A stretch of DNA of 64,000 nt from an uncultured Desulfatiglans sp. (GTDB lineage Bacteria > Desulfobacterota > DSM-4660 > Desulfatiglandales > Desulfatiglandaceae): NCBI GenBank assembly GCA_900498135.1, contig LR026961.1, forward strand, positions 2,154,693-2,218,692. Reading direction: 5' to 3'. Positions 1 through 29,852 of the stretch are shown here, in pieces. The notes beneath the pieces were generated by a model. It did no database searches and was not told where the DNA came from. It saw only the letters and a program-made list of their open reading frames with translations. The first letter of the stretch is position 1. Each line of letters starts with the position of its first letter. The position numbers and the translations under genes are program-made.

Positions 1-56
1 AGCGCACCTGAATGGGGTTCAGGGGGTCGGAGGTTCAAATCCTCTCGTCCCGACCA
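1..56 (+). tRNA. tRNA-Pro(GGG), 3' part only
   Basis: This is the 3' portion of a proline tRNA whose 5' part lies before the window. The anticodon stem CCTGA/TCAGG encloses the loop ATGGGGT, giving anticodon GGG, which reads CCC. The T arm has a 5-bp stem (GGAGG/CCTCT with one G-U pair) around TTCAAAT. The 3' acceptor strand CGTCCCG is followed by discriminator A and an encoded CCA. The acceptor 5' strand cannot be seen. Confidence 0.93.
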
Positions 57-18840: not shown

Positions 18841-20499
18841 TTACCTCTCCGCACCCACATCGAGGGAATCTCCAATATAGATCATATACTCGAAAGGCAG
18901 ATTTTCCGTTGCCTCTTGTCCCATTAAGCCGCTCAGCCTTCTCTTCGATACCATTTCCCTGCCGGCGTAACCGGCGCTCGATACAATGGCGACAGGCGTG
19001 TCAGGTGGATAGTGCGCAGACAGGATGTCGATGAATTTCTTGAATTCTGTGCGCATGGTGAAAAGCGCCATCGTGCACTGCAGCGGGGCCATTTCCTCTA
19101 CGGACCAGCCCGACGCGAGAACAACCGAGTGGAAGCGCCTATCGTCGGCGATTCCTTGCGCCAGGGCTGCATTGGCCGCGTTGAAGCAGCTCAGACCCGG
19201 TACGACTTCAGTGTCCACATCCTTCAACTCCTGGAGGGTCCAGGAGGAGGGCCCGTAAACGAGAGGGTCGCCGCTGTCCATCATGACGACTGTTTTTCCT
19301 TCTGCCACAGCCTTACGAACCCGCGCGGCAAATTCCGCCTGTTTTCGATGGAATTCATCGCAACTCATTTTTTCCTTCTTTTTTTCAGCGTCGCTTACTT
19401 CCGAACAGCTTTTCCCATAAAAGGGAAAGAGCCGATGGAACCCAAATATGACCTCCTTTCCTGACAGCTCTTTCTGAAAGCGATCACTGAGTTTCTCCGA
19501 AGCGAAGACCAGATCCGCCTTTTGGATGACTTCGAGGGCACGGAGGGTGGCCAAATCCGGGTCGCCGGGACCCGTCCCGACCAGGTAGAATTTGCCTGAT
19601 CCTTTTACCTTATCGGCAAAGGCTGCTCTGTAAGGGGCATCTTTCAAGGCCTTTCCAACATAAAGCAGATAAAAACCGGTGCCTTGCACGGGTGATTTCT
19701 GCTTAAGGTCCCCGATTGTACCCACATACACTCCGGTTTTTTCCTGCTGGCCTGCATGGTTGACAACTGCCACAGGCGTATCTGAAGGAAACGAGGCCGA
19801 AAGCCTTTTCACAAGATAGGCCATATCTCCGGGCACGAATATGACCAAGGTCGCCTTATCATACCGGGCTAGGTTTTCAAGGGTATCCTTTTGCTGTTCT
19901 GCGTCATCGCCGCAGAATGGCGTCGTAAGAATCACCTCGCCCAACCCTGCCCGGAGGACAGCGTTGGCGGCGTTAAAGGCACTCAGGCCAGGCACAACGC
20001 TTGGGTTGAGGTCGGCCAATTCTTGAAGCGTCCAAGCATCCGCTCCATAAAGGGTCGGGTCTCCAGGGCTCAAAAAGGCCATTTTTTTCCCCTCCGCTAC
20101 ACCCTTGCGGACGATCTCAGCCAATTCGGCCTGTTTGCCCTGGTAGGTTTCACAGGGGATGCCGTTTTTTTTGCGTTGATCCTCAGCGAGGGCGTTGCAG
20201 TCCTGCCTGTAGAAACTGCCTAGGCCCTGAAAGCCATCAAAGACCTGCTTCCTGTTGACGTCCACAAGGCTGGATAGCCTTTCACGGATGTCCGCGCTGC
20301 AAAAGACTACATCCGCACTCTGGATCGTTGACAGTGCCTTGGCAGTCAAAAGATCTGCGTCTCCTGGCCCGATACCTACCAGAAAAAAGGCGCCTCGGGT
20401 CGTTGCCTGTGTGCTTTGGATCTCCGATGAGGCTGCGCAGGCCATAAAAAGGCTGCACACACATGCCAAAATGCATGTCAGTATTCTCGTTTTTTTCAC
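18841..20499 (-). CDS. Exported protein with two tetrapyrrole (precorrin) methylase domains
   Basis: The 552-residue protein starts with a signal peptide (KKTRILTCILACVCSLFMAC; lipoprotein-like Cys possible). Two tandem CobM/CbiF-like domains follow. Domain 1 (about 36-300) has VGIGPGDADLLTAKAL, LSPGDPTLYGA and VPGLSAFNAANA. Domain 2 (about 303-545) repeats these as VGTGPGDPDLATLRAL, MDSGDPLVYG and VPGLSCFNAANA. These are the SAM- and tetrapyrrole-binding motifs. Each domain has an insert after a Phe-Tyr motif with two Cys exactly 15 positions apart, which suits a disulfide. SAM is not expected outside the cytoplasm, so a binding role (corrinoid, haem or metal chelate) is inferred. Start is GTG 20499. 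It lies behind the TonB receptor. Confidence 0.85.
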   Translation of the reverse strand: MKKTRILTCILACVCSLFMACAASSEIQSTQATTRGAFFLVGIGPGDADLLTAKALSTIQSADVVFCSADIRERLSSLVDVNRKQVFDGFQGLGSFYRQDCNALAEDQRKKNGIPCETYQGKQAELAEIVRKGVAEGKKMAFLSPGDPTLYGADAWTLQELADLNPSVVPGLSAFNAANAVLRAGLGEVILTTPFCGDDAEQQKDTLENLARYDKATLVIFVPGDMAYLVKRLSASFPSDTPVAVVNHAGQQEKTGVYVGTIGDLKQKSPVQGTGFYLLYVGKALKDAPYRAAFADKVKGSGKFYLVGTGPGDPDLATLRALEVIQKADLVFASEKLSDRFQKELSGKEVIFGFHRLFPFYGKSCSEVSDAEKKKEKMSCDEFHRKQAEFAARVRKAVAEGKTVVMMDSGDPLVYGPSSWTLQELKDVDTEVVPGLSCFNAANAALAQGIADDRRFHSVVLASGWSVEEMAPLQCTMALFTMRTEFKKFIDILSAHYPPDTPVAIVSSAGYAGREMVSKRRLSGLMGQEATENLPFEYMIYIGDSLDVGAER

Positions 20500-20648: not shown

Positions 20649-22862
20649 CTAAAACGTCAAAGAGGCCATAAATACCGCTGTGAAGGGACCACCTGGGTAG
20701 TAACTGGCGCTGCCACCCGTGGTGTAGTCAGATGCCCTGATGTAGGAGATATACTCCTTGTCAAACAGGTTGTTGAGGTCCAGAGACAATTTGAGAGACT
20801 TTGCAATGGGGATTTTGTCCCATTCGTAAGCCAATCGCAGATCAGCGATTGCATAGGCATCGACTTTTTGGGAGTTCTCTGCATTCGCATAGCGGGAACT
20901 CATGAATCTCACCATCGGAATAATTTCCAGGTTCTCCCATTTAAATAACAAACCCGCTTTCACAAGGAATTCGGGCGTATCCACCACTTGGTTGTCTTTT
21001 ATGGTGATGATGCTCCCGTTTGAGTCGATGTCTTCATCGTACCGGAGCACAGTCCAACTCGGATTGATGAAAAACGTCAAAGGCTTAGCCAGGTAAAAAT
21101 TCGCACCGACATCGATTCCGTAGCCGCTGGCCTCCGCGGAATTCTGTTGGTAGCTGAGATCTACCCGCGGGTCGTAGACATTGGTGAAGAGGTTTTTGCT
21201 CTTGTTGAAGAAAACGGTAGGTGTGATGTCGAACCAGGAGGTATTCCAGCGAACGCCTACATCGACGGTGTCTGTCTCTTCCATTTCGTAGCCGCTGAAA
21301 AGGTCGTTCAGTGTGATGCCCGCGTCAATAAATCGCTGCCGGTAGGTGTTGTAAAGGTTGACCAGAGGCATGTATGAATAAGGTCGAATAAAGCTTTTCC
21401 CGTAACTCGCATAGACTTGGAAGGCCTCTGAAAAATGATATCCAACCCCCAATGTGGGTAGCAGGATGTCGTAAACCCTTTCCTCTCGGTCTAAATCAGG
21501 CGCCCGCACCAGTTCGTAGGTCTTGGAGTCCGTGACGTATCCTTGGCTGGCACCTTCGTCATATCTGAAATACTTGAGCCCGGCTTGTAGATCAAAGTCT
21601 TCATAGGTGCCTGCAATTTTGAAGTAAGGGCTGTTTATGTAGGAAGCGCTAGGCGAGGCGAAATTTCCATAACCTTGCCAGGCAAGTCCTGATGACGTGA
21701 TGCCGTAGTTTTCTGAAAAAATTTTCATATCGTTCTTTTCAAAATGATAGCCTAAGGTAGCCGTGAATATGTCGGCATCCCATTTTGCTTCAGCGATGGC
21801 GCCAGGACGTTCGATGTCTCGATTTCTTTTTTGAATGCGGCCACCGCCCGAAGTGACGCCTTGATAGATCTGCGAGTCTTCGACGCTGTAATATGGTTTG
21901 ATAGTGAAAATCAAGTTCTGAAAGTGATTAATAGTGATAAGTCCGAGAACATCCGTGTTTTTATAGGCTCCCGTGTTATACTTATAATAATAGATGTCTT
22001 GGGATTTCTTCCCGGTCAAATCCGGGTTGTAGTCAAATTTATAACTATCTGAAAGATTTTGAACCTGGCTATAGCTGAGAGCTCTATACAAATCTTGTTT
22101 TAGATCGTTATAGTTGAACCAGACATCTATACTGACTTCCTGGCCGAGAGGTTGTGATAATGCCAAATTTGCATTGTTTCTGGGCCCGATTTCTCCCGGA
22201 CCTTTCCACTTGTCGGCTTGTGTATAGGAATAGGACCCCGAAAACCGCGTATCAAAATCTGTCAGTGATCCAGAATCCAACCTTAAAAAAGTTCGATTGT
22301 AGCTGTCGGTGCCTACACCCTGATTAATGATCGCCCCGAATTCCTTCGCGGGCCAACGCGGTTTCAATTCGATCGCCCCACCCCGGTCTCCGACGCCCGT
22401 CCCGAGGTCTCCGGGCACTGCCCCCTTATAGACCGAGATTGACTGCAGGTTTTCCATGTCATAGATGTAATCGCGGGGGCCGATGGGGTTTCCACCGTAA
22501 TTGGGCACCCCTTCAACCGTCATGGCACCCAATGATCCTCGCATCCCTCGGATTCGGGAGGAGCTTTGCTCCGCGCTCAGGCCATATGGATCGGCGCTTT
22601 CCACACTGATCCCGGGAAGGATGTCGATGGCTTTGTACACACTGGTTTTAGCACTGGGCCCTTGGCTGTCTATGCCCTCTTTGGTCACTTCAGTACCGGT
22701 GTAGACCGTGTCATCCAATTGCATGGTGGGGGCGAAGAGTTTTTCTCCGCTGATCCGGACCTCTCCGATTTCGATAGGCTCCTCGCCCATGGCTGTTATG
22801 GGCGCCATGAGGCCGAAAAGGCTTACTATGGCGGCCAGTGCCATATTCTCCAAAAGCCGCAT
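20649..22862 (-). CDS. TonB-dependent outer-membrane receptor
   Basis: The 737-residue protein has a signal peptide (cleavage near TAMG-EE) and a plug domain (about 40-180) with SVYKAIDILPGISVES, RIRGMRGSLGAMTVEGVPNYGG and LQSISVYKGAVPGDLG. A beta-barrel to the C-terminus ends in Phe (TAVFMASLTF), the usual outer-membrane signal. Segments such as VYASYGKSFIRPYSY and GVRWNTSWFDITPTVFFN are typical of siderophore or metal-chelate receptors. The substrate cannot be told from sequence, but the neighbours point to a tetrapyrrole or metal chelate. GGAGG lies 6 bases before ATG 22862. A half copy of the dispersed repeat begins only 24 bases upstream of the start codon. Confidence 0.92.
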   Translation of the reverse strand: MRLLENMALAAIVSLFGLMAPITAMGEEPIEIGEVRISGEKLFAPTMQLDDTVYTGTEVTKEGIDSQGPSAKTSVYKAIDILPGISVESADPYGLSAEQSSSRIRGMRGSLGAMTVEGVPNYGGNPIGPRDYIYDMENLQSISVYKGAVPGDLGTGVGDRGGAIELKPRWPAKEFGAIINQGVGTDSYNRTFLRLDSGSLTDFDTRFSGSYSYTQADKWKGPGEIGPRNNANLALSQPLGQEVSIDVWFNYNDLKQDLYRALSYSQVQNLSDSYKFDYNPDLTGKKSQDIYYYKYNTGAYKNTDVLGLITINHFQNLIFTIKPYYSVEDSQIYQGVTSGGGRIQKRNRDIERPGAIAEAKWDADIFTATLGYHFEKNDMKIFSENYGITSSGLAWQGYGNFASPSASYINSPYFKIAGTYEDFDLQAGLKYFRYDEGASQGYVTDSKTYELVRAPDLDREERVYDILLPTLGVGYHFSEAFQVYASYGKSFIRPYSYMPLVNLYNTYRQRFIDAGITLNDLFSGYEMEETDTVDVGVRWNTSWFDITPTVFFNKSKNLFTNVYDPRVDLSYQQNSAEASGYGIDVGANFYLAKPLTFFINPSWTVLRYDEDIDSNGSIITIKDNQVVDTPEFLVKAGLLFKWENLEIIPMVRFMSSRYANAENSQKVDAYAIADLRLAYEWDKIPIAKSLKLSLDLNNLFDKEYISYIRASDYTTGGSASYYPGGPFTAVFMASLTF

Positions 22863-23698: not shown

Positions 23699-26269
23699 TC
23701 AGGCTATCCAGATGCCCTCCAGATAAGAAGCTGTAAAATCCAGCATGATCCTAGGTTGATTGCTCTTCAGGTTCCAGGAGACGAAAGGCACCAGCTGGTC
23801 GGTAATGGCATCCTTTTCGAGCCCCAGATGGTCCGCGATCGTGGCGAGAGCCTGCCTCACGGTGGCGACCAGGACCTGGTCGAGCCGTGAAGCGGCGTTG
23901 ACGGCCTTGAGTTTCGGGTTGCTCTGCAGCTCCGCCAGCGCCTCATCCCAGTGGATGGCGTCGATCTGACGGCGGAGGACGTAGCCGTTGCCGCGGTCCC
24001 GGATGATGAAGAGGATCGGGTTGACCTTCAGCCAGGCGCCCTTGATCTTGACGTCTTTGAAGGATGCGCCGATCCGCTCCAGCAGTTCGTTTTTCTTCTG
24101 GAGCCCCTCGATCTGGCGCGCCTGAACCCGTTCAATGATATACGGTTCGTTGTCGATGGCGATTTCTTTCAAGCGGGTCGGGTCGAACCCGAGGTCCATG
24201 AGATCGCCTAGCGTCAGCGGGTCCGTGTAGGACTTGCCGCGCTCCTCGAGCCAGGCCATGAAGCTCGGCCGCCGGTAGTTCGGCAGGGCCTCGATGGCGC
24301 GGGCCGGGTCCTGGGTCAGATCGGCCGGGAGGCGCGAGAGCAGGTCGAGCCGGCCCGCGCAGACAGGGCTCTTGTCCGCGAGTTCCCGCGGGGCGTAGCT
24401 CTTGATCTGAAGATTCGCGACCTCCGGTGCCAGGGTGATCTGTCCGGCGGACTCGCCGCCCGTGTAGCCGATCAGTGAACCGATGCGGCGTCTGAAGGCG
24501 ATGAATTTTGTGACGAAGCGGGTGAACATGAACCGCATGTAAACGGATGACTGCCTCGCATCGATCTCCGCCCCGAAATACGTGCACAGGGTCCGGTAAA
24601 GGGTTTGGAACTCCTCCAGGGTGCGCCGCACCATGACCTCGTTGTCCCGCGCGTCAATGACGGCGCGCTTCCGGTTGAGGTGATAGAGAAGCTTCAGGAG
24701 CGCCGGCTTCAGATCGTGTTCTTTGAAGGCCGGCGGAATGAAGACCATGTAGTTCGAGTCCTTTTCCAGGGCCGTCTCCCCGACGATTTCCGTGACGGGT
24801 TTCCAGGCTTGCTTCAGATAGATATCGTAGGTCGGGTCCTGATTGGGGATGATGTTGTCGAGGATCCCCAAGGCGGATTTCCCGGTCAGAAAAGCCCCGA
24901 AGTGTTCGAGAATGCGGGTCCCCAACCCCTTCCTGCGAAAGGGGGCGGCGACCTCCACGTAGACCAGGTAGTAGCAGGGGGCGGGTTTCTTGAGGTAGAG
25001 CATGTTGAGGCGCCCCAGGCTTTCGCCGGTTTCGGCTTCGATCTCGAGTTGATGGAAGCCGTTCTCGGAATCCCCCGGCCGTTGGCGGCTAATCCGGCTG
25101 CCGGCGACGGTGGCGTCCACGAGGTCCCAGAGGTCGTTGAAGAGATCGGCCACGATCGGGGCGTCCGGAAGCCCGCGGCGCATGCCTTCGTCGATCAGCG
25201 CCACGAGGCTCAGGCGTTCGGAGGCACTGAGGGTTTTTTCGCCGATGGGCAGGCGGAGGGGGGAGATCTGCCGGTGTTCTGCGGGGCTTGAATCCGCATC
25301 GCGCCGGGGTTCGGGAATCGCCTCTTCTGCAGCGGCCCCCGGGCGACAGGGGGAGGGCCCGGAGGCCACTTCCCTGGACCGTATGATCATCAGGCGGGAG
25401 AGGTCGTACATCACCTTGAAGGGCTGAATGTCCGTCAGACCGCTTACGAAGCGCGCTTTGTCGAGGGCGATCGCCCCAGCGTTCTCGCCGGCGGCGAGGC
25501 GGTTCACCATCTCCGTGTGGTATTCCTCGGCTGCCGCGATGGCCTTTGCAATGAATCGACCGGCCCCGCCGTTCACAACGCCGTTGTGGCTGAGGATCAC
25601 CCGTTCGGCCTGGAGGGTCTCGAGCCTTCGGAGGCTTGCGCAGTATTGCCCCAGGGAAACGAAGTAATTGGGCCAGAAGATGTCCTTTTCGGGAAGATAG
25701 AATCCGGCTGCGTCTCCGATGGCGATCGTTTTTTCTTTTTGTTCGTAGAGCGACATGTGGCAGGGGGAATGTCCGGGGGTGGCGATCGCCTGCCAGACGA
25801 CGCCTTGACCGAGTTCGATGCTGTCTCCGTCGCGGATGATGAGGTCCGCCTCGAAGCGAAAGTCGCGGAGCGACGGGGGCATGGCCGCAAGCTCCGCCTT
25901 GGCCTTCAGCAGCTGGGCGATGCCGAGGTCCACCAGGATGAATTCCCGCTGCAATTCGGGGGTGCTCAGGATCTCGGCGCCCGGAGCGCTGACGACGAGC
26001 TTCAGATGCGGCCAGATCCGTTTGAGATACGGCACGGCCCCGATGTGGTCGGCATGGGTGTGGGTCAAAAAGACATATTCTATGCGGTTCGGATCGATGC
26101 CAAGGCTCAGGATCTGTTCTGCGATGAGGGTCGAAGTGGGGCCTGTCCCCCCTTCGATGATCATTCCGGAGTCGCCCAGGGAGAGGTATACCGGGAAGGC
26201 CGGTATGCCAAGCTGAAACAGGTGGGGTGTCACGGCGATCGCGGGGTGTTCTTTGGGGTGGTCTTCCAT
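23699..26269 (-). CDS. Large fusion: metallo-beta-lactamase fold + GNAT-like domain + unknown C-terminus
   Basis: 856 residues. The N-terminal MBL domain (about 1-250) has the zinc motif THTHADHIG, the metal Asp in AIGDAAGFYLP and an ATPGHSPCHMSLY segment, as in hydroxyacylglutathione-hydrolase-like enzymes. A Pro/Glu-rich linker (about 305-345) leads to a region with a GNAT acetyl-CoA loop (APFRRKGLGTRILEHF, about 440-455). The last 350 residues (e.g. YMRFMFTRFVTKFIAFRRRIGSLIGYTGG) are not recognised, and the basic, helical content suggests nucleic-acid or membrane association. The role is unknown. It is the only gene behind the leader at 26363-26446 and has a weak Shine-Dalgarno. Confidence 0.75.
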   Translation of the reverse strand: MEDHPKEHPAIAVTPHLFQLGIPAFPVYLSLGDSGMIIEGGTGPTSTLIAEQILSLGIDPNRIEYVFLTHTHADHIGAVPYLKRIWPHLKLVVSAPGAEILSTPELQREFILVDLGIAQLLKAKAELAAMPPSLRDFRFEADLIIRDGDSIELGQGVVWQAIATPGHSPCHMSLYEQKEKTIAIGDAAGFYLPEKDIFWPNYFVSLGQYCASLRRLETLQAERVILSHNGVVNGGAGRFIAKAIAAAEEYHTEMVNRLAAGENAGAIALDKARFVSGLTDIQPFKVMYDLSRLMIIRSREVASGPSPCRPGAAAEEAIPEPRRDADSSPAEHRQISPLRLPIGEKTLSASERLSLVALIDEGMRRGLPDAPIVADLFNDLWDLVDATVAGSRISRQRPGDSENGFHQLEIEAETGESLGRLNMLYLKKPAPCYYLVYVEVAAPFRRKGLGTRILEHFGAFLTGKSALGILDNIIPNQDPTYDIYLKQAWKPVTEIVGETALEKDSNYMVFIPPAFKEHDLKPALLKLLYHLNRKRAVIDARDNEVMVRRTLEEFQTLYRTLCTYFGAEIDARQSSVYMRFMFTRFVTKFIAFRRRIGSLIGYTGGESAGQITLAPEVANLQIKSYAPRELADKSPVCAGRLDLLSRLPADLTQDPARAIEALPNYRRPSFMAWLEERGKSYTDPLTLGDLMDLGFDPTRLKEIAIDNEPYIIERVQARQIEGLQKKNELLERIGASFKDVKIKGAWLKVNPILFIIRDRGNGYVLRRQIDAIHWDEALAELQSNPKLKAVNAASRLDQVLVATVRQALATIADHLGLEKDAITDQLVPFVSWNLKSNQPRIMLDFTASYLEGIWIA

Positions 26270-26362
26270 AGTGATGGACCTCGAATAGGACGGTGTAGTG
26301 TTTTAAGTCGATCTCGAACGGCGGCTCGGGAATTCCCCGGAAGATTCACCGCCGCAAAGGCC

Positions 26363-26446
26363 AAAAAAAAACCGTGGGCACCTGGTGTGCCCACGGTTTT
26401 GAAAATCAGACAGAACCTGTCAACCCATGGGCACAGTCCACCTCCT
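26363..26446 (-). promoter_or_regulatory. Putative translation-coupled attenuator with mini-ORF
   Basis: On the minus strand a strong AGGAGG (26446-26441) is followed, 6 bases later, by the mini-ORF GTG CCC ATG GGT TGA. The mini-ORF bases GTGCCCATGG (26434-26425) can pair with CCGTGGGCAC (26396-26387). The same CCGTGGGCAC alternatively pairs with GTGCCCACGG to form a perfect terminator stem (26396-26372) before nine T residues (26371-26363). The layout fits a switch in which a ribosome on the mini-ORF masks the first strand and favours termination, 94 bases before the MBL/GNAT start. Inference from base pairing only. Confidence 0.55.
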
Positions 26447-26744
26447 AAAATAAAAAAACAGCCCGGATTGACGATCGAATGTAACCATCGATAACCTTCT
26501 TCTCTCCACGGCCACGGCCGGCCCCCTCGAAAAGAACCTTTTGGCGCCGTCCGCCGTCTTACGATCCATCCCGGATCTTCTTTTGCGTTGCGATGCTCTT
26601 GTGCGCTGTCTTACCGCGCCTTCGGCCGGAATACGAGCAACCCTTCTCTCGAAGGTTCAAGGAAACGGAATACCGCCCAGAATAAACATCACCCCAATCA
26701 TCATCCAAAAGGGTTCGGTTTGTCAAGTTTTTTGAAGGGTCAAT
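26447..26744 (-). promoter_or_regulatory. Leader and possible promoter for the MBL/GNAT gene
   Basis: On the minus strand TTGACA (26726-26721) is followed after 17-18 bases by GATGAT, a poor -10. If used, the leader would be about 420 bases. No gene lies in the interval, and no known riboswitch fold was recognised. Confidence 0.35.
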
Positions 26745-27140
26745 CTACCGAGCCGATTTTGAGCGTCGATCCTCCTCCACATGCCGTGTGGCGACAACGT
26801 TGCAGGCCGTTCCAGCAGGTGTCCGCAGCAGGACATCCCCGATACGGACAGGCGCGGTGATCCGAAGGCCCCGGATCGCTTGCATGACTTCGGTGATGCG
26901 GTCGAGCGGGATCGGGCTGTCCGTCCGCACGCTGACCAGGGGGAAGGCCCCGGCCTCGACGGCGATGCTGCTCGCGATAGTGCGGACGGGGTTGAGGAGT
27001 TCCTGCTCCGCCCAGGCAAGACCTTTGTCGCAGGTGTATCCGGAGACCTCCTTCACGACGACAGCCGGTGTCTCTTCGTAAGCGATGGTCAGTTCGCAGC
27101 CGTTCGGGCAGATGACGCAGGTCAGCTGTTTTGTTTTCAT
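26745..27140 (-). CDS. DUF1667 protein, iron-sulfur/FAD operon partner
   Basis: The 131-residue protein starts with the DUF1667 cysteine pattern CVICPNGCEL, followed by a third conserved Cys in VSGYTCDKGLAWAEQE. Next comes the NPVRTIASSI motif and PLVSVRTDSPIPLDRI. These proteins accompany two FAD enzymes (a GlpA-like oxidase and an NAD(P)H-type disulfide oxidoreductase), and the Cys residues probably bind an iron-sulfur centre. Its start overlaps the end of the upstream FAD gene by 4 bases. It is the last gene of the operon. Confidence 0.88.
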   Translation of the reverse strand: MKTKQLTCVICPNGCELTIAYEETPAVVVKEVSGYTCDKGLAWAEQELLNPVRTIASSIAVEAGAFPLVSVRTDSPIPLDRITEVMQAIRGLRITAPVRIGDVLLRTPAGTACNVVATRHVEEDRRSKSAR

Positions 27141-28378
27141 TCCACCGAAACCTCCAACTCTTTTGCGTCCTGGAGTTTTTCCGCCTTGATCTTGACGCGG
27201 ATCATCTCAGCCGGGTGGAGGCGCATGAGCTTCTTCCGCGCCACCTTCCGTTCCCCGGCCCGCACCCAAACGGCCCTTTCCCGGGCAGGCTCCGCGACCC
27301 GCAGGGACAGCGTGAAATCCCCCCGCCCGCTCACTGTCTGCGGCAGCACATAGCGGACGCCGGGTCCGGGGCTGATGGCGATCCGGGGCTCCGCAGTGCG
27401 GGCCTCACCCTGGACGTAGGCCGCGGCGCAGGCTCCCGCGAGGGCCGCCTCCTCCGAGACCCAGTCGACCAGATCGTGGACGTGCAGGACGTTGCCGCAG
27501 GAAAAGACCCCCGGAATACTGGTCATGAACGTATCGTCCACGGCCGCCCCGCTCGTCCGGTCTTCCATGAGCACCGAGGCGCTCCGTGAAAGCTCGTTTT
27601 CGGGGATCAGTCCGACCGAAAGAAGCAGCGTGTCGCAGGGGACAAAGCGCTCGGTGCCCGGGACAGGGCGGCGGATCGCATCGATCTCCGCGACGGTTAC
27701 ACCCGTCAGGCGTTCCTTGCCATGGACCTCGATCACCGAGGTGCCGAGATATAAGGGGATGCCGTAATCATTCAAGCACTGCTGGATGTTCCTGGGTAGG
27801 CCGCTTGCATAGGGGAGGATCTCGAAGACCGCCTCGACCTTGGCCCCTTCCAGGGTCAACCGCCGGGCCATGATGAGCCCGATGTCGCCCGAGCCCAGGA
27901 TGACGGCCCGTTCGCCGACCATGATGTTCTGAAGGTTGATCAGGTTCTGGGCGGCTCCGGCCGTGTAGATCCCGGCAGGCCGGGTGCCTGGAAGGGAAAT
28001 GGCGCCGGCTGTCCTTTCGCGGCAGCCCATCGCCAGGACCACGGCGCCGGCGTCGATCTGCATGAACCCGCCGCGCGAACTGACCTGGAGGGACCGGTTG
28101 GCGCCGAGGCCGAGGACGATCGTCCCGAGCATCGCCTCGATGCCGAGGGAATGGAATCGGTCGATGTAGCGCTGCGCGTATTCGGGACCGCTCAGGGCCT
28201 CCCCGAAGCGGTGCAGCCCGAAGCCGTCGTGGATGCACTGGTTGAGAATGCCGCCGAGGATCTTGTCCCGTTCGATCAGCAGGACGTCTTTGCACCCGTT
28301 TGTTTTTGCGGCAATGGCGGCGGAGAGGCCTGCCGGTCCTCCTCCGATGACGACCAGATCGCGTTTTATCGTTTGCAT
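27137..28378 (-). CDS. FAD/NAD(P)-dependent oxidoreductase
   Basis: A 413-residue flavoprotein of the pyridine nucleotide-disulfide oxidoreductase superfamily. The FAD-binding motif is near the N-terminus (VVIGGGPAGLSAAIAA). QCIHDGFGLHRFGEALSGPEYA and GCRERTAGAISLPGTRPAGIYTAG are typical of the family linked to GlpA and DUF1667. The NAD motif is VILGSGDIGLIMARRL, and the C-terminal FAD-contacting segment is PGVFSCGNVLHVHDLVDW. It has a characteristic C-terminal extension. It probably accepts electrons from the GlpA-like subunit. It sits between the two partner genes with overlaps or gaps of under 15 bases. Confidence 0.9.
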   Translation of the reverse strand: MQTIKRDLVVIGGGPAGLSAAIAAKTNGCKDVLLIERDKILGGILNQCIHDGFGLHRFGEALSGPEYAQRYIDRFHSLGIEAMLGTIVLGLGANRSLQVSSRGGFMQIDAGAVVLAMGCRERTAGAISLPGTRPAGIYTAGAAQNLINLQNIMVGERAVILGSGDIGLIMARRLTLEGAKVEAVFEILPYASGLPRNIQQCLNDYGIPLYLGTSVIEVHGKERLTGVTVAEIDAIRRPVPGTERFVPCDTLLLSVGLIPENELSRSASVLMEDRTSGAAVDDTFMTSIPGVFSCGNVLHVHDLVDWVSEEAALAGACAAAYVQGEARTAEPRIAISPGPGVRYVLPQTVSGRGDFTLSLRVAEPARERAVWVRAGERKVARKKLMRLHPAEMIRVKIKAEKLQDAKELEVSVE

Positions 28379-28391
28379 GGTGATTCGGCCC

Positions 28392-29852
28392 CTAACGCAC
28401 GCGCCCTGAAAAGAGGTGCGAGCCTTTGCTGAACAATAGATAATCCTCCGGCCGGTAGCCGAATTCCTTTTCCAGGATCTGCACGATTCGCGGGAGGCAG
28501 AATCCGCCCTGGCAGCGCCCCATCATGGCCCTTGAACGATACTTGATCCCGGCGATCGTCCGCGCACCGAGGGGGTTCTGGATGGCCTCCAGGACCTCGC
28601 GCTTGGTGATCTGTTCGCAGCGGCAGACGATCTCACCGTAATCCGGGTCCTGCGCGACCAGATCGGCCTTCTCCTCCGCCGGCAGCTCGTGGAACAGCTC
28701 CGCGCGGCCGGGGCGTTCTGCGATGAACGCGGCCTTTTCCACCAGGGGCAGCCTCTCCGCCACCATCTCCCGCACCATCTCGGCAATGGCCGGGGAGGAA
28801 GTCAGTCCGGGGCTTTCGATCCCGACCAGATTGATGAAACCCGGGAAATCGGTGCGGCTTTCGATGACGAAGTCCTTGAAGCCCTTGATTTCCGGTGGGG
28901 TCTGTTTGGCCCGGAGGCCGGAAAAGCTGCGGATGAAGTCCGCCGTCGAGATCCCGGGCAGGAGTTCGTGCCCCTCCTTCTTGAGCTGGGCGATGATGTC
29001 GGATGTGCAGGCGTAGTCGTCGGGCGTATCCACGTATTCGTTGCTCGGGCCGATGAGGATATTACCGTCGACGGTGTTCGTGAGGTGGATTCCCAGACCG
29101 GCGCCCCCCTTTCGCGGGGCCGGGTAGACGAGTACGGAGAGGCTTCCTTGCAGGCGCTTGTCGAGGATCAGGTATTCACCCCGGCAGGGGTAGATGCGGT
29201 ATTCCGAGATGCCGAGCAGCGCGCAGATCCGGTCGGCGTAAAGGCCGGCGGCGTTGATCAGGACGCGGGCCTCGAAGGTATCGCCTCCCGTGGTCGTTAC
29301 TGTGAATCCATCGGCGCCGTAGCGGACGGCGTCGGCCTCCTGACCAAGGTGGAAGTCGACGCCGTTCATCCTGGCATTATCGGCGAGGGCGATGGTCAGC
29401 CCGTAAGGGCAGATGATCCCGGTGGTCGGTGAATGAAGCGCCCGGATGCCGCCCACGCCCGGCTGGATCGCCTGCATGGTGGCTTTGTCGAGGATCTCGA
29501 GTCCTGGAACTCCGTTGGCTTCGCCCTGCTCTTTCAGGGCATGGAGCGTGCGGACGTCTTCTTCGTCCTGGGCGACGGTGAGCTTGCCGATATACTGGAT
29601 CTTGACCTTCAGCTCCCGGCATAACGGGCCCATCAGGGCGTTGCCCCGCACGTTCAGGCGGGCGCGCAGGGCCCCGGGTTTGTAGTGAATGCCTGAATGG
29701 AGCACCCCGCTGTTGCGGGAGCTCGTGCCCATGCCCACGTCCAGTTCCTTTTCGAGCACTGCGACGCGGATCTCGTAGCGGGACAGCTCCCGCGCGATGG
29801 CGTTTCCCACCACGCCTGCGCCGATGATCAAGACGTCATATGAATGTTCCAT
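28392..29852 (-). CDS. GlpA-like FAD dehydrogenase with C-terminal [2Fe-2S] domain
   Basis: 486 residues. The N-terminal DAO-type FAD domain begins DVLIIGAGVVGNAIARELS. Substrate-side motifs include GTSSRNSGVLHSGIHYKPGA and GVESPGL-like VGIESPGLTSSPAIAE. The C-terminal BFD-like domain (about 400-470) carries CRCEQITKREV and RCQGGFC, four Cys for a [2Fe-2S] cluster. The family oxidises glycerol 3-phosphate or 2-hydroxy acids such as 2-hydroxyglutarate, and the substrate cannot be fixed here. It is the first gene of a three-gene operon with the FAD oxidoreductase and DUF1667. No strong Shine-Dalgarno precedes ATG 29852. Confidence 0.88.
   Translation of the reverse strand: MEHSYDVLIIGAGVVGNAIARELSRYEIRVAVLEKELDVGMGTSSRNSGVLHSGIHYKPGALRARLNVRGNALMGPLCRELKVKIQYIGKLTVAQDEEDVRTLHALKEQGEANGVPGLEILDKATMQAIQPGVGGIRALHSPTTGIICPYGLTIALADNARMNGVDFHLGQEADAVRYGADGFTVTTTGGDTFEARVLINAAGLYADRICALLGISEYRIYPCRGEYLILDKRLQGSLSVLVYPAPRKGGAGLGIHLTNTVDGNILIGPSNEYVDTPDDYACTSDIIAQLKKEGHELLPGISTADFIRSFSGLRAKQTPPEIKGFKDFVIESRTDFPGFINLVGIESPGLTSSPAIAEMVREMVAERLPLVEKAAFIAERPGRAELFHELPAEEKADLVAQDPDYGEIVCRCEQITKREVLEAIQNPLGARTIAGIKYRSRAMMGRCQGGFCLPRIVQILEKEFGYRPEDYLLFSKGSHLFSGRVR

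Follow-up and report, generated by a model that had tools for sequence, protein, structure and literature searches.

The MBL–GNAT gene and the RNA in front of it

The stretch of an uncultured Desulfatiglans sp. genome analysed here (64 000 nucleotides (nt) of contig LR026961.1, hereafter the window) carries on its minus strand a gene for a protein of 856 amino acids (aa) with a metallo-beta-lactamase (MBL) domain, a GNAT domain and a conserved C-terminal domain, preceded by a leader region that we read as a putative transcription attenuator (Table 1). Residues 32–228 of the protein match the metallo-beta-lactamase family PF00753 (88.1 bits; cut-off 22.7), and the closest solved relatives of this N-terminal domain are PqsE structures (aligned residues 19–242; E ~1e-17). 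PqsE, a 2-aminobenzoylacetyl-CoA thioesterase, has this metallo-beta-lactamase fold in common with the window protein but, unlike it, lacks a GNAT domain, and its gene lies in a different operon. The GNAT and conserved C-terminal domains start at about residue 345. Pfam PF00583 scored 18.1 bits on the GNAT part, below its cut-off of 20.7, and a GNAT fold is predicted from the protein model (best Z 11.0; root-mean-square deviation 2.9; 122 residues aligned; 3ey5). The C-terminal 533 residues are 45–66% identical to homologues (98% within the genus), with many invariant residues, and the last 334 were modelled at a mean pLDDT of 86.5. Foldseek and VIA-align returned protein-kinase-like chains for the C-terminal part (best E 4.6e-3; Z 7.0); no kinase is claimed, because a Z under 8 may reflect merely a common arrangement.

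On the minus strand, positions 26488 to 26420 form one reading frame of 22 codons plus stop, ATG GTT ACA TTC GAT CGT CAA TCC GGG CTG TTT TTT TAT TTT AGG AGG TGG ACT GTG CCC ATG GGT TGA. In a same-genus genome all of it but the first four codons is conserved. A first-pass annotation had described the end of this frame as an open reading frame (ORF) of four codons (26434–26420) driven by a Shine–Dalgarno AGGAGG (26446–26441). Both motifs are present as described, but the frame is open upstream to the ATG, the AGGAGG is an in-frame pair of Arg codons of the leader, and the supposed GTG start aligns with CTG in two related loci (L033 and L036) and with CCG in a third (L002), whereas the long leader is conserved. 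Taking the last leader codons for a mini-ORF hid the true signal, so that the supply of aromatic aminoacyl-tRNA, the first strand and the connection with genes for aromatic amino acids were all overlooked.

The RNA has a trp-type architecture, with strands 1 and 2 (1:2) as protector, 2:3 as antiterminator and 3:4 as terminator, the last a perfect 14-bp hairpin (26400–26368) followed by nine T and lying 5′ of the structural gene. Duplex energies are −18.1, −21.6 and −26.0 kcal/mol for 1:2, 2:3 and 3:4 respectively. The perfect stem with its nine T had been recognized before, and the complementarity among 26434–26425, 26396–26387 and 26381–26372 is as then stated; that set of three lacked strand 1 and was to this extent incomplete.

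Table 1. Features of the MBL–GNAT gene and its leader region, in window coordinates.
Feature	Position	Strand	Remark
Regulated gene, 856 aa, metallo-beta-lactamase + GNAT + conserved C-terminal domain	23699..26269	−	
T9 tract of intrinsic terminator	26363..26371	−	overlaps last stem pairs
Strand 4, GGTGCCCACGGTTTT	26368..26382	−	terminator 3′ arm
Strand 3, AAAACCGTGGGCACA	26386..26400	−	terminator 5′ arm; antiterminator partner of strand 2
Strand 2, TGTGCCCATGGGTTGAC	26419..26435	−	end of leader; includes the four-codon ORF of the first-pass annotation
Leader ORF, 22 codons + TGA, product MVTFDRQSGLFFYFRRWTVPMG	26420..26488	−	AGAAGG six bases 5′ of ATG 26488
Trp17 codon	26438..26440	−	2:3 is lost once the A site is on codon 16 or beyond (computed fold)
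AGG AGG, Arg15–Arg16	26441..26446	−	in frame with leader; earlier taken for a Shine–Dalgarno
Control codons 11–14, TTT TTT TAT TTT (Phe Phe Tyr Phe)	26447..26458	−	A site here frees strand 2 (computed fold)
Strand 1, GTCAATCCGGGCTG	26459..26472	−	within leader, 5′ of control codons; pairs with strand 2
Promoter-like site TTGACA-18-GATGAT	26697..26726	−	sole sigma-70-like match in 24500–28500; ~210 nt 5′ of leader

The 136-nt region folds better than all of its dinucleotide shuffles (200/200; z −4.7), and none of 200 shuffles gave a 1:2 duplex as good as that of the window. With the transcript ending before strand 4 and a ribosome assumed to mask 17 nt on the 5′ side and 14 nt on the 3′ side of its A site, the computed probability of 2:3 pairing, P(2:3), is 0.99 with the A site at codons 11–14 (F F Y F), falls to 0.23 at codon 15 and is 0.00 at every later position as far as the stop; the Trp17 codon is probably too near strand 2 for a control-codon role. 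A script that asked for five or more F/Y/W within eight codons of a small ORF, followed by a strong hairpin and six or more T, found such an aromatic leader with terminator once in the window, at this leader, and never in 60 shuffles. No Rfam family (T-box or riboswitch) matched the attenuator region at its gathering score; a sub-threshold match to sraA (E 0.49) and miRNA matches were rejected, as they arise from the hairpin alone. The stretch 26390–26740, mostly the long 5′ part, folds no better than shuffles (z 0.33), and for this reason no riboswitch is claimed.

Leaders and pairing in relatives

Homologues of the 856-aa protein were gathered from relatives, named genomes and a sample of the phylum (G and L labels denote genomes and loci). 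Of the 297 phylum genomes in that sample, 22 carry the GNAT-containing part, and the named relatives are Desulfobacteraceae, strain NaphS2 and other Deltaproteobacteria. Among the leaders upstream of these homologues are MIESQSGYFFNFYFRGESLPMD, MSVAHTFKGVYYYFFSRRSGMP, MRVMHTLKNFFYYYFSRRAGMP, MNAHAEKFFYFCFYFRGGARMA, MNDFFLNPYYFYFYFYSGVCPD and MIRRKGWFNFYYFYYYSFRDRSAFLCQIT. A scripted tally upstream of the homologous genes (45 rows, representing 44 distinct loci, L050 being second in the same operon as L085) gave a clear leader and terminator in 27 rows, a weak one in 4 and none in 14, against a background of 6 clear matches among 208 other ORFs of the fetched DNA. At least two of these six (L070 and L114), probably genuine attenuators, stand before DhnA-type aldolase genes in aromatic operons. 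Three script-negative rows (L064, L066 and L085) show a leader by eye and fail the script's terminator or codon rule, and for L060 and L035 the script scored a different ORF from the one read by eye. Outside the tally stand a further copy of the gene in G012, locus L041 with 104 nt upstream, locus L037, whose leader runs off the contig, and the gene fragments L083/L084, while repeats of other rows (L034, L039, L040, L046–L048, L051 and L052) were left out. 5′ of the fusion gene of NaphS2/G012 (L005/L034), the terminator end is retained and the leader block lost, the attenuator apparently having been converted to another form of control.

Leaders and strands fall into three sequence classes that follow one logic. 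Class A comprises the window, the other fusion genes and an aroK leader (L002), with a strand 1 of the TCAATCCGGG type and CCGTGGGCA as strand 3; L035 and L002 are exceptions, having a different strand 1 and a strand 2 altered to match. Class B includes most standalone GNAT genes and has CACACAC, GTGTGTG and GCGGAGCACA, and class C carries extra CCATGG-centred strands between leader and terminator.

Conservation of the pairing, a check that the first-pass annotation had proposed, was found in the relatives, where the strands are both conserved and covarying. In an alignment of 17 class B leaders, 97.3% of 255 cells are paired (0/500 shuffles equally good), helices 1:2 and 3:4 covary, and 6 of 15 pairs changed on both sides; all six pairs of helix 1:2 vary, four of them on both sides. 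Own strands were also compared with mismatched ones at 21 loci (2000 permutations), with 0/2000 for 1:2, 6/2000 for 2:3 and 0/2000 for 3:4, the negative control 1:3 showing no preference (342/2000); kinship of the sequences inflates these figures, those of the covariation and those given below for class B alike. The 21 loci were drawn from 32 leaders, omitting the near-duplicates L004 and L038 and the nine leaders of class C/L065, which have another strand arrangement, with extra strands between leader and terminator. Within class B (16 loci) both 1:2 (12/5000 permutations) and 3:4 (0/5000) hold.

Aromatic amino acid genes and other surroundings

A DNA search of the organism's own genome with the attenuator returned a second site (E 5.7e-4; 72%), at which the leader MTLTAIDIQTISARYYVGAYLYFWAWSPPMG, complete to its stop, and similar hairpins and terminator lie directly 5′ of aroK-aroC (L093; aroK by eye). 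After aroC, from L093:5460 onwards, comes another leader-like ORF, containing FYFYYWW and accompanied by a terminator; next are a response-regulator-like ORF (by eye), aldolase and pheA genes and, just past these, a prephenate dehydrogenase domain. Leaders ending GPPVCP/GPPVGW, which resemble this ORF, occur after aroC in G005 and G037. A covariance model built from class B leaders alone gave weaker matches in regions of G005, G015, G035 and G037 that contain aroK-aroC leaders (e.g. MISNQSWQSYYWFYFSGRGLPMD and MNNLSRCSFYFYFFRGGLPMD). Across the own genome and relatives (L093, L114–L117), these aroK-aroC leaders share the architecture and the CCGTGGGCA / GCCCAYGG-type strands of the fusion-gene leader, and their ends (PPMG, LPMD) are similar to those in the fusion-gene family (VPMG, LPMD); they differ in preceding shikimate kinase and chorismate synthase and in control blocks that often contain Trp. 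Because leader ends and strands resemble class A, the sequences suggest that the attenuator of the fusion gene was copied from an aroK leader. Relative G024 (L112:454) has a Trp-type leader, MDSHGIEISADYLRNWWWRSFFREVRPL up to its stop, with a terminator.

GNAT genes that have no leader of their own may sit behind pheA in aro operons. The gene order in G248 is aroE-aroA-aroK-aroC-pheA-gene-DUF362-(nitronate monooxygenase family)-trpE, while in G226 the GNAT gene comes after a DhnA-type aldolase, a 3-dehydroquinate synthase II-like ORF (by eye) and pheA, in an operon that bears its own aromatic leader. The GNAT gene follows pheA in G332 (pheA by eye); in G328 it comes after aroC-pheA but is separated from them by other genes. 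Standalone MBL genes are found 3′ of DAHP synthase genes in G025 and one Chloroflexi genome, and behind F-rich leaders with terminators (by eye) in G030 and G033. In G087 the MBL and GNAT genes adjoin behind the leader MKHGKFFFFFVFTRAHPCP, in which Phe, present six times, is the only aromatic residue. The GNAT/PqsE-like pair thus occurs in separate, neighbouring (G087) and fused (window) form, each form being under Phe/Tyr attenuators or in aro/pheA or DAHP synthase neighbourhoods. That all three forms come under the same type of control suggests, by linkage, that they share a role in supplying aromatic amino acids.

To see whether gene-bearing genomes miss a pathway step, 40 genomes were screened; tyrA (PF20463) was matched in 15 and pheA (PF00800) in 28, with no clean pattern. 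Seven gene-bearing genomes, some of them incomplete assemblies, have no prephenate dehydratase match (G006, G010, G039, G289, G135, G257 and G049). G135 and G257 (L062 and L059; 98–99% complete) combine this absence with GNAT genes whose leaders are very rich in F/Y, and may have another source of Phe/Tyr or be auxotrophic.

Elsewhere in the window, a 552-aa protein (18841–20499, minus strand) has two tetrapyrrole-methylase (PF00590) stretches and an N-terminal signal-peptide-like segment, and adjoins an ORF of 737 aa (20649–22862, minus strand) that is outer-membrane receptor-like by eye; a putatively secreted methylase-like protein beside such an ORF would be unusual. The window ORF starting MGVFKRQTIFNLLQSGEHLM is preceded by a short ORF, VSIWEIFFRGFSDLDP, that the tally script also flagged, together with a hairpin and a T-run; this is probably due to chance. 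A truncated tRNA match lies at the window edge (1–53, plus strand; RF00005, 29.9 bits).

Interpretation and biological meaning

We consider it highly probable (about 0.93) that the region is a ribosome-mediated transcription attenuator, placed before the MBL–GNAT gene, that senses Phe/Tyr supply. Leader, strands, conservation, covariation and the shared use by aro operons rest on sequence and computation, and from these we infer that the ribosome stalls, which way the response goes and that the protein serves aromatic amino acid supply. In this mechanism a ribosome would translate MVTFDRQSGLFFYFRRWTVPMG while RNA polymerase transcribes the leader. With plentiful Phe-tRNA and Tyr-tRNA it would reach the stop codon and cover strand 2, letting the 3:4 terminator form; with these in short supply it would stall on TTT TTT TAT TTT and cover strand 1, so that 2:3 would pair, block the terminator and allow transcription of the MBL–GNAT gene. 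An untranslated leader would fold into 1:2 and 3:4 and lead to termination. The conserved gene is therefore very probably switched on, as far as the sequence can tell, when aromatic amino acids run short.

The E. coli pheA, pheST/pheM and trpL attenuators have a short leader with cognate control codons, strands pairing as 1:2, 2:3 and 3:4, and a U-tract terminator. The window attenuator shares all of these with the enterobacterial phe/trp attenuators, as well as the biosynthetic logic; unlike them, it precedes an uncharacterized MBL–GNAT gene, has a mixed Phe/Tyr control block and a strand 2 that overlaps the leader's own end, and differs in sequence and phylum. The mechanism is thus known and of a classical kind, and what is new is the proposed tie of an uncharacterized gene family to aromatic amino acid supply. 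Literature searches combining leader peptides or attenuation with Deltaproteobacteria, Desulfatiglans, Geobacter or Desulfovibrio gave no match, and with Desulfobacterota the listings returned other topics only. Among the titles and abstract openings retrieved none concerned this leader or gene, although the 2010 comparative survey of attenuators by Lopatovskaya and colleagues, in the references of PMC4833913, could hold related predictions; trp and pheA attenuation are named in an excerpt of PMC1183508.

Several observations weigh against the attenuator. By script and eye together, 10 of the 44 distinct loci have no leader, three of them directly behind pheA; none was seen in G049, G086 (two copies), G121 or G179, and NaphS2/G012 keeps only a terminator remnant. 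Tested locus by locus, helix 1:2 reached p ≤ 0.05 in just 17 of 32 leaders (6/6 in class A, including L004 and L002; 9/17 in class B; 2/9 in class C/L065), L042, L054, L060, L066 and L067 being among those in which this test did not detect it. Within class B, 2:3 shows no covariation (2488/5000 permutations); it is uninformative there because its strands are nearly invariant, and is supported across classes. Full-length equilibrium favours the terminator despite a stalled ribosome (P(3:4) 0.60–1.00 at codons 11–14), so the switch must be kinetic and co-transcriptional, as in classical attenuators. Lastly, the window promoter is weak (one sigma-70-like match in the stretch searched, for a shuffle mean of 0.9) and distant from the leader, though its −35 element and most of its spacer are retained in a same-genus genome. 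As to the transcription start, also among the checks proposed earlier, most relatives have a sigma-70-like site (TTGACA-N17-TATARN-like) just 5′ of the leader by eye.

Control by ribosomes was already part of the first-pass annotation, and that part is strongly supported; its control element, a ribosome starting at GTG 26434 and choosing between 2:3 and 3:4, is not, and we regard it as highly unlikely. Internal initiation is possible, given the AGGAGG, the GTG and their good spacing, but these belong to the in-frame end of the longer leader, the start is not conserved whereas the Phe/Tyr-rich control codons are, and an ORF that lacks cognate codons has nothing to sense. The similar ends of several leaders (VPMG, PPMG, LPMD) could instead point to a peptide that arrests its own ribosome on a small molecule, in the manner of TnaC or SecM, and not on a lack of charged tRNA. 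Yet the constant feature across leaders is the run of F/Y/W codons and no fixed peptide, their ends vary widely (AGMP, GARMA, SAHL, FLVDR, AHPCP), and the end shared in class A is conserved because it codes for RNA strand 2; such arrest is very improbable.

The same verdict, only slightly softened, applies to a real cis element that reads general slowing of translation: the mixture of F/Y/W codons and the family members in genomes without detectable prephenate dehydratase are in keeping with it, but the G087 leader has six copies of Phe as its sole aromatic residue, and sister leaders stand at aroK-aroC and other aromatic genes. The DUF1667/oxidoreductase genes upstream end at 26745 on the same strand, but that the hairpin is merely their ordinary intergenic terminator, next to a chance aromatic ORF, has next to no probability, as the arrangement arose in 0/60 window shuffles and the leader–terminator unit precedes homologous genes in other neighbourhoods.

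The Phe/Tyr attenuator would serve as a functional label that places a conserved uncharacterized protein family in aromatic amino acid supply, and it would supply the inducing condition for an assay. One regulatory design, in leader ends and CCGTGGGC strands, is common to the MBL–GNAT gene and the aroK-aroC operon. Since the gene persists in genomes without detectable prephenate dehydratase, the family may belong to another Phe/Tyr route or to the response to Phe/Tyr lack. On balance we lean towards an unrecognized part of the machinery by which Desulfobacterota make or salvage aromatic amino acids, which would consist of a PqsE-like hydrolase and a GNAT protein whose C-terminal domain has weakly kinase-like fold matches.

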